Assembly: GCA_020630015.1 (NCBI GenBank) | Contig: JAHDCF010000002.1 | Location: 13,505-77,504 of the forward strand | Source: Planktomarina sp. | Lineage (GTDB): Bacteria > Pseudomonadota > Alphaproteobacteria > Rhodobacterales > Rhodobacteraceae | DNA: 64,000 nucleotides | Reading direction: 5' to 3' | Shown here: in pieces, positions 60,916 to 61,889 of the stretch | Position numbering within the stretch: position 1 is the stretch's first letter | Layout: every line of letters begins with the position of its first letter | Made by a program: the position numbers and the translations under genes | Notes under the pieces: model-generated | Database searches by the model: none | Seen by the model: the letters and a program-made list of their open reading frames with translations, nothing else | Told to the model about the DNA's origin: nothing

Positions 60916-61443
60916 TTAATTATCTGCGATCGCGGAAAGATTTTGCATCAATCCATCCATCGCTTTTTGATACCGTTCATTGATCAAAGCATTGTCTTTG
61001 ATTTCGTTGTGACACCCTGCAACCATCACGTTTGGGGCGCTGATCAGGCGCGCGTTGAATGCCGCCATCGCAAGCCTGAGAGAGGCGATGGCCATTTCAC
61101 CGCCGGTGCGCCCGGCCGTGGCCGACATCAAGCCAACAGGTTTGTCTAACCATGGATTTCCGTCAACGCGGCTGACCCAATCCAAGGCGTTCTTCAAAAC
61201 CCCTGAAAGGGATTTATTGTATTCGGGGGTGGCAATCACAATCACATCCGCGGCGGCGATTTGGTCAGCCAGTTTTTGCACGGATGTTGGGATTCCATTT
61301 GCCTCTGTATCGCCGGAATAAAGGGGCAGGTTCAGATCGCCCATTGTGAATGTTGTGGGGTGCGCTGATGTGGCGGCGGCGTGCACCAATTGCGTGTTGA
61401 AACTGTCTTTTCGCAAGCTGCCAGAAAGGCCGAGAAGATGCAT
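60916..61443 (-). CDS. NADPH-dependent FMN reductase
   Basis: This 175-residue flavodoxin-like reductase has the phosphate loop LLGLSGSLRKDSFNTQLVHAA near residue 3 and the isoalloxazine-binding ATPEYNKSLSGVLKNALDWVSR near 77. The substrate-side loop is LMSATAGRTGGEMAIASLRL. Family members reduce FMN, quinones, chromate or azo dyes with NAD(P)H. AAAGGA lies upstream of ATG 61443. It heads a probable operon with the two Lin0512 genes, and an unusual repeat element lies in its upstream region (61508-61605). Confidence 0.94.
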   Translation of the reverse strand: MHLLGLSGSLRKDSFNTQLVHAAATSAHPTTFTMGDLNLPLYSGDTEANGIPTSVQKLADQIAAADVIVIATPEYNKSLSGVLKNALDWVSRVDGNPWLDKPVGLMSATAGRTGGEMAIASLRLAMAAFNARLISAPNVMVAGCHNEIKDNALINERYQKAMDGLMQNLSAIADN

Positions 61444-61507
61444 GTTTGGATCCTTTGTTTGCGTCAACTTGGCTTACGCGATCGGGCCACCGGGGGCAAC
61501 GCACGTT

Positions 61508-61605
61508 AGGTTAACCTTTGGCTTGGAAAGGCAAATCCGTGTGCACAACCCGTACACAATCCGTACACAGGCCGTACACCGCTTGGTTTGGGGTCAAAGG
61601 TTAAC
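61508..61605. repeat. palindrome-flanked 11-bp direct repeats
   Basis: Exact 11-bp period units, CCGTACACAAT (61550-61560), CCGTACACAGG (61561-61571) and CCGTACACCGC (61572-61582), follow a diverged CCGTGTGCACAA (61537-61548). The array is bracketed by a perfect 11-bp inverted repeat, GTTAACCTTTG (61510-61520) and CAAAGGTTAAC (61595-61605); the left arm is itself inside the palindrome AGGTTAACCT. It lies between two minus-strand genes, 65 bases before the FMN reductase start. A protein-binding array, with one unit per DNA turn, or a chromosome-maintenance site are possible; neither is proven. Confidence 0.75.
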
Positions 61606-61634: not shown

Positions 61635-61889
61635 TTAACGTCGATCCGTGGCGGCGCGCCCGATCACGATGGCCAAAACCCACGCGGCCAACACAATGGC
61701 CCCGGGTGCGATCACCATGAATATCAAATCTTCTCCCGACAGCCCCCATGGTGGTTTAACGCGACAGTTTTGCGATCCCGATGGTCCCGAAAATGCGCAG
61801 GCCAAAGCCGACACATAAACATATCCAAACACCCAAAGACCGGTTGCCAAAATTGCCAAGACATAAAGTATGATTGAAAGCACCCGCAT
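61635..61889 (-). CDS. small membrane protein of unknown function
   Basis: This 84-residue protein has two predicted spans, LSIILYVLAILATGLWVFGYVYV and FMVIAPGAIVLAAWVLAIVIG. A short outside loop between them has two cysteines (LACAFSGPSGSQNCRVKPPWG) that could form a disulfide. It ends in a basic RAATDRR, probably cytoplasmic. I do not recognise the family. It sits between cysH and the repeat element on the same strand, 54 bases after the cysH stop. Confidence 0.7.
   Translation of the reverse strand: MRVLSIILYVLAILATGLWVFGYVYVSALACAFSGPSGSQNCRVKPPWGLSGEDLIFMVIAPGAIVLAAWVLAIVIGRAATDRR

Follow-up and report, generated by a model that had tools for sequence, protein, structure and literature searches.

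The locus under study lies in a 64,000-nt stretch of DNA (herein the window, meaning the whole of this stretch) in the gap between the gene for an NADPH-dependent FMN reductase and a small ORF, beyond which is a gene with a PAPS-reductase domain. Because both flanking genes are read on the minus strand, the array described here is upstream of the FMN reductase and between two same-strand genes. Table 1 lists the features. Four units start at 61539, 61550, 61561, and 61572, a spacing of exactly 11 bp, and they are bracketed by two arms, GTTAACCTTTG and CAAAGGTTAAC, that are perfectly complementary and separated by 74 nt. The left arm also overlaps a palindrome, AGGTTAACCT, at 61508 through 61517. 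Within the window the two-unit pattern (at most two mismatches) matches three times against 0.01 expected, and three or more matches were reached in 0 of 100 shuffles. An earlier note on this DNA had described 11-bp-spaced units between perfect inverted arms, and units, spacing, and arms were all found as described; the 11-bp period also bears out its proposal that proteins on successive units would lie on one face of the helix.

Table 1. Features of the array locus and the gene of the presumed binder
Feature	Coordinates	Strand	Remarks
NADPH-dependent FMN reductase gene	60916..61467	-	PF03358, Pfam E 2.8e-38; left flank, context only
Left arm GTTAACCTTTG	61510..61520	+	motif associated with arrays in the window genome
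Four-unit array GTGTGCAC/CCGTACAC/CCGTACAC/CCGTACAC	61539..61579	+	presumed RHH binding sites, from sequence
Right arm CAAAGGTTAAC	61595..61605	+	reverse complement of the left arm
Small ORF	61635..61889	-	right flank, context only; no Pfam match at E 0.01
RHH gene of the window genome	G000:C12:54708-55112		outside the window

The array is one member of a dispersed family. A BLAST search of the window genome (G000) with the element returned 33 matches, itself included, and searching by pattern yielded 75 hits, compared with 2 for the backwards pattern used as a control. The hits merge into 35 places, of which two pairs at assembly breaks (the start of contig C11 with the end of C12, and both sides of a run of N in C19) may each represent a single array; overlap with predicted genes never exceeds 10 bases. 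The earlier view that the site is not an ordinary promoter is borne out, and its suggestion of a family of chromosomal elements has its counterpart in the 35 places. Among the 32 other BLAST matches, nine continue beyond the array across a spacer toward an arm (73 to 84% identity); the rest consist of the array alone. Right array ends in many loci share a signature such as GTACATAC or GTGCAGAC, and the arrays seem to possess a defined polar end. Two near-identical arrays with common flanks, 1.5 kb apart in contig C53 (positions 71047 and 72510; L072), represent a local duplication. Several contigs start, end, or nearly end in an array (the start of C11, the end of C12, and C3, C18, and C68 near their ends); arrays may break the G000 assembly.

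In some lineages the arms represent a genuine second motif. A TTAAC-type motif occurs within 100 bp on both sides of 16 of the 35 arrays of the window genome, and GTTAAC is present in 17 of 21 array regions versus 4 of 143 other intergenic regions there (p = 6e-16). The corresponding counts are 12 of 20 versus 4 of 169 in G209 (p = 6e-11), 3 of 20 versus 10 of 166 in G266, and 2 of 20 versus 6 of 168 in G179, where GTTAAC is not above background. Of the palindrome-array-palindrome design proposed earlier, the association of GTTAAC arms with arrays thus stands for the window genome; the closed design is not general, as the 16 of 35 arrays and the counts in G179 and G266 indicate. The constant part of the element is the 11-bp array.

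Across the window's family (295 genomes of 294 genera), the exact unit pair is found in 5 genomes and the three-unit pattern (at most two mismatches) in 32; the backwards control of the latter also matched 14 genomes, with most hits in G266 (11), which carries its own ATGCACA arrays, and G295 (5). Single hits with two mismatches in four genomes that have no RHH match (G012, G112, G167, and G191; the RHH protein is introduced below) may be due to chance. In genomes of named species the three-unit pattern marks at least 115 stretches, and 84 of the 97 listed with a usable origin are from Rhodobacterales; Yoonia litorea and Nioella sediminis are among the species that carry arrays. The array family recurs patchily across this order. 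A lack of conservation in close relatives would have counted against the earlier note, and this applies by half: within the genus, BLAST matches the element in 2 of 20 genomes, leaving 18 without a match, whereas elsewhere the period is kept and the unit changes with the RHH protein. Far outside Rhodobacterales, similar GTACAC arrays with an 11-bp period occur in Limisphaerales (L142, 9 units; L182, 10 units) and in Verrucomicrobia (L107), possibly as independent cases. A three-unit GTACAC-type 11-bp pattern is likewise seen in the short stretches viewed of three viral contigs (L079, L080, and L081). A plasmid or phage origin of the element was considered and dropped, as no match was obtained at E 1.

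We clustered the genes flanking 177 arrays (175 distinct) and found one small protein that recurs beside arrays in six genomes; its gene starts 55 to 81 bp downstream of the array and is transcribed away from it. This ribbon-helix-helix (RHH) protein, an orphan that resembles BrnA antitoxins, is the likely binder. All three of the RHH proteins scanned match Pfam BrnA_antitoxin (PF14384) with 50.5 to 57.4 bits against a cut-off of 26.1. In the window genome, a contig end truncates the array that belongs to the RHH gene, leaving two units visible. A profile built from the six proteins (A1) matches in 113 of the 295 family genomes and in 3 of the 20 genus genomes; some of the weak matches are probably true BrnA antitoxins. 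RHH matches are present in 14 of 16 genomes with at least three CGTACAC-pattern hits versus 99 of 279 other genomes of the family sample. A search for RHH in viral contigs gave one weak match, and 11 plasmid records hold distant BrnA relatives, all below 60% identity. The predicted structure of the RHH protein (helix 10-37, strand 60-62, helix 68-75, and helix 80-96) has an order that fits RHH at a mean pLDDT of only 59.7; a PDB fold search with this weak model returned no match at E 0.001, and a profile search for PDB relatives gave one meaningless match.

The gene on the far side of the RHH-linked array differs in all four cases where it was called, and in the larger set of RHH loci the upstream neighbors recur in groups of 9, 8, 5, and 3, so the link between gene and array holds over several different surroundings. 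Clustering of 118 neighbors of called RHH genes yielded recurrent families, named by eye, of release factor 3 (9), ketoacyl synthase (8), and carbamoyl phosphate synthase (5). No recurrent toxin-like gene and no recurrent motor-like gene of the ParM/ParA type was seen by eye among these 118. Beside some arrays (L367, L059, L190, and G000:C38:9691) lies a similar membrane-protein gene and, at L367, also a release-factor-like gene (by eye). Four genomes, G283 (35 pattern hits), G277, G263, and G173, have arrays and no RHH gene matching two profiles, and no RHH ORF was found near 14 arrays fetched from them. The arrays at gltD in G283 and at lpdA in G263 (by eye) occupy usual places. In these genomes either the RHH gene has been lost, or a diverged or different protein reads the arrays.

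In most genomes an 11-bp array is found upstream of the best RHH matches, with a spelling that varies (CGTACAC, CGTGCAC, CATGCAC, CGTATGG, CGTCTGG, CGTCTTC, and others). A sequence-free scan of periods 6 through 25 gave period 11 as the best in 45 of 72 upstream regions of RHH loci, the next being period 12 with 5; in downstream control regions, taken from the second batch of loci only, period 11 was best in 0.3 of 40. Protein and unit were compared at those 45 of the 72 loci where three units are in register. Residue 50 (R/K) against unit base 6 (A/G) gives counts of 23, 2, 1, and 12 (p = 4e-7), residue 50 (R/K) against base 5 (C/other) gives 25, 3, 1, and 14 (p = 1.2e-7), and residue 54 (R/other) against base 2 (G/A) gives 30, 1, 5, and 9 (p = 2e-5), with off-diagonal controls at p = 0.13 and 1.0. 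In a scan of all well-filled protein columns, the top rank goes to residue 50 at each of bases 5, 6, and 7 and to residue 54 at base 2. Residue 52 comes second at base 6, and base 4 has W62 first and residue 50 second. Residues 50, 52, and 54 would be every second residue of the strand that RHH proteins insert into the DNA major groove.

The tables were repeated after registers at four loci (G083, G266, G058, and G231b) had been corrected by hand. Residue 50 against base 6 then gives 24, 3, 0, and 13 (p = 5e-8), and the counts for residue 50 with base 5 (25, 3, 1, and 14) and for residue 54 with base 2 (30, 1, 5, and 9) are the same; of the off-diagonal controls, residue 50 against base 2 reaches p = 0.017, with the association reversed, and the second control has p = 0.73. 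A tree built without the strand columns requires nine or more changes in each of the two characters, the residue 50 class and base 6. Edge-disjoint pairs give, for residue 50 and base 6, six same and none opposite of 7 (sign test p = 0.031) and, for residue 54 and base 2, eight same and none opposite of 12 (p = 0.0078); the control pairs give none same and three opposite of 7, and two same and two opposite of 8. Repeating the pairing over 40 seeds on the corrected registers most often gave 7 same of 7 and 7 same of 11; the outcomes listed contain no opposite pair, and the control of residue 50 against base 2 tends in the reverse direction (4 of 8). Restriction to well-supported branches leaves three to four independent pairs, mostly not opposed and too few for significance. 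In these alignments, then, unit bases covary with β-strand residues 50 and 54 and less clearly with 52, and this covariation strongly supports the view that the RHH protein would recognize the array units. One genome, G231 (L211 and L295), carries two RHH genes whose upstream units differ from each other, and spells its lpdA array as that of the second.

The unit read upstream of an RHH gene was used as a pattern to scan whole genomes (one array may give several hits), and it located dispersed arrays in 13 of 15 genomes. GTCTGGC gave 68 hits in G209, 27 in G319, and 17 in G225. It had no hits in G314 and G086, where the RHH-linked units depart somewhat from this spelling. ATGCACA gave 95 hits in G266, 84 in G067, 36 in G118, 7 in G164, and 4 in G081, and CGTATGG gave 164 in G101, 76 in G179, 31 in G083, 19 in G139, and 8 in G150. 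Foreign patterns served as controls: GTCTGGC had no hits in G000, G266, and G083, ATGCACA none in G000, G225, and G083, and CGTATGG none in G000 and G266 and one in G225, so that eight of nine genome-pattern pairs were without hits and the ninth had one.

A second comparison concerns position. Upstream of the lpdA orthologue, on the strand opposite to lpdA, a clear 11-bp array (at least 16 of 26 matches, and the best of periods 6 through 21) is present in 13 of 22 RHH genomes, with G290 left out since only a paralogue was found there. In genomes without RHH the count is 0 of 4 in the first set, and G263 (no RHH match) has one. By eye, the lpdA unit equals the RHH-linked unit in nine genomes (G179, G083, G067, G118, G266, G319, G209, G111, and G174), resembles it in G265 and G155, and is unlike it in G139. 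Nine of the 22 RHH genomes are without a clear lpdA array, among them G019, a relative of the window genome, which shows two units. The lpdA site is often kept while its spelling changes.

The 177 arrays comprise 95 in tandem gaps, 39 in convergent gaps, 13 in divergent gaps, 20 at contig or locus ends, and 10 that overlap a predicted gene. Pooled over four genomes, 24 of 81 arrays lie in convergent gaps versus 84 of 716 background gaps (p = 5e-5), and 9 of 81 lie in divergent gaps versus 187 of 716 (p = 0.0025). G179 alone has no convergent excess (2 of 20 arrays versus 17 of 183 background gaps). Array spacing is more regular than expected by chance in G209 (p = 0.04) and on one contig of G266 (p = 0.005). 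Recurrent neighbors, named by eye, are lpdA (7 proteins; 8 for the gene on the other side) and gltD (5 proteins), the gltD site being at the 3' end of the gene. An RNA-level (Rut-like) element was ruled out, as the arrays have no fixed orientation to genes.

Array direction follows composition. For each of G266, G000, G209, and G179, 20 regions were picked from hit lists blind to skew, giving ten arrays per strand in G266, G209, and G179, and 21 arrays in G000, two of them possibly a single array split by an assembly gap. Of the resulting 81 arrays, 8 overlap a predicted gene. In 20-kb regions array direction equals the sign of the GC skew in 20 of 20 (G266), 17 of 21 (G000), and 19 of 20 (G209), and the fourth genome, G179, taken afterward as a test, agreed in 20 of 20, for an overall 76 of 81 (p = 2e-17). 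Agreement is 20, 17, 19, and 19 in G266, G000, G209, and G179, respectively, when the skew is computed from third codon positions with a correction for the strand of the gene. It is weaker in G000 at a range of 1.5 to 6 kb (13 to 15 of 21). GC skew changes sign many times along G209, so the axis of the arrays is one defined by composition and is presumably that of replication. One study describes the GC-skew pattern of Rhodobacterales as distinctive (PMC9836097).

The array family, its period, the linkage of gene and array, the covariation with strand residues, the orientation along the skew, and, in many genomes, the kept lpdA position can all be read from sequence. From these we infer physical binding, cooperativity, and autorepression by the RHH protein. 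We consider it fairly probable that the window array belongs to an autoregulated RHH-iteron system that resembles ParR/parC but has its directional nucleoprotein sites spread along the chromosome, with a role in chromosome architecture or segregation. An orphan RHH protein, small and of the BrnA-antitoxin family, would bind direct 11-bp units side by side on one helix face, and the array before its own gene would probably give autorepression. The remaining arrays, between genes and off divergent promoters, would point along the local GC-skew (presumably replication) axis, and protein and arrays would change sequence together between genera. That the arrays are directional anchors or boundaries for chromosome organization or segregation, rather than operators of neighboring genes, is our guess. 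A stronger version, which we put forward only tentatively, is that each genome keeps private directional signposts, read by RHH and marking the replication axis, and that the whole set is respelled in place when contact residues change.

Several features would also suit a global transcription regulator, with RHH as repressor or activator and the arrays as the operators in a regulon of metabolic genes (lpdA, gltD, and others, by eye): an array precedes most RHH genes, sites recur at lpdA (7 proteins) and at the gltD 3' end (5), and operators that co-evolve with their regulator are ordinary. The cooperative operator suggested earlier does fit the promoter of the presumed binder; it misfits most positions, with convergent gaps enriched and divergent ones depleted. 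As arrays thus favor convergent and avoid divergent gaps, have no fixed distance or orientation to neighboring genes, and follow the GC skew in their direction, a metabolic regulon seems unlikely. We find it similarly hard to credit that RHH filaments act as roadblocks against read-through at gene 3' ends and between convergent genes. This would account for the convergent-gap enrichment over four genomes and for a neighbor's 3' end that, from the listed distances, is often close; it leaves unexplained both the GC-skew direction and why only tens of intergenic gaps carry arrays, and G179 is without the convergent excess.

The arrays might instead be selfish or REP/MITE-like repeats, spread by copying that is perhaps linked to replication, which RHH merely binds and whose strand bias stems from the mode of spreading. 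The patchy distribution, the 9 of 32 other matches that reach through the spacer toward the arm, the two near-identical copies in contig C53, and the arrays in genomes without a detectable RHH gene are in keeping with such a history. Some elements that insert into single-stranded DNA are replication-oriented, and this, too, is counted in its favor. Set against these points, most of the 32 other matches are the array alone, the lpdA position is kept though the unit changes, and covariation with strand residues points to recognition; we regard a selfish origin as very improbable. The preferred reading remains a directional RHH-iteron system of the chromosome.

RHH proteins on iteron arrays are already known from plasmids and toxin-antitoxin operons. 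What appears undescribed in the literature found is a directional set that spans the chromosome, consists of tens of arrays, and diversifies in spelling together with one small protein from genus to genus; a literature search, with most subscription papers outside reach, found no description of such arrays. That the RHH genes of related bacteria each lie next to arrays of a different, matching spelling hints at an undescribed chromosome-wide marking system. The 45 protein-site pairs form a natural recognition-code data set for RHH proteins; the system also exemplifies a large set of sites respelled in parallel with the protein that reads them, and through it one could ask about the function of polar chromosomal sites in Rhodobacterales.

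Several known systems share parts of this arrangement. MatP is an RHH-type protein whose matS sites are many, dispersed, single, and confined to the terminus region. It has in common with the present system the type of protein and the many dispersed chromosomal sites, whereas here multi-unit arrays run along the whole 4.16-Mb G209 contig and their spelling varies between genomes. KOPS is a polar leading-strand motif bound by FtsK; like it and other polar motifs, the arrays have a direction that follows the GC-skew axis, but they are multi-unit, number tens per genome, and have RHH rather than FtsK as the inferred binder. The DNA uptake sequences of Neisseria are dispersed dialects private to a lineage, a likeness in both dispersal and lineage-private spelling; the arrays are far fewer, phased at 11 bp, and linked to the gene of a DNA-binding protein. 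The match to Pfam BrnA_antitoxin recalls the BrnT-BrnA toxin-antitoxin system, from which the present one differs in having no recurrent toxin-like neighbor seen and dispersed arrays in place of one promoter operator.

Partition systems come nearest, and of the suggestions of the earlier note the partition-like site is the closest. In plasmid R1 the parC unit is 11 bp, and ParR has the RHH fold. ParR-parC and the omega-parS system of pSM19035 share with the present system iterons upstream of their genes, here direct 11-bp units ahead of the RHH gene; the present system differs in that no motor gene recurs beside the RHH gene and in its tens of dispersed arrays with spelling that varies between genera. 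As set out in PMC5016525, these plasmid systems have iterons upstream of the partition genes and repress their own promoters, with ParR binding as one dimer per iteron, and the type Ib binders have the RHH fold. By analogy, the closest known working principle would be that of ParR, ParG, or omega proteins on iterons with self-repression.
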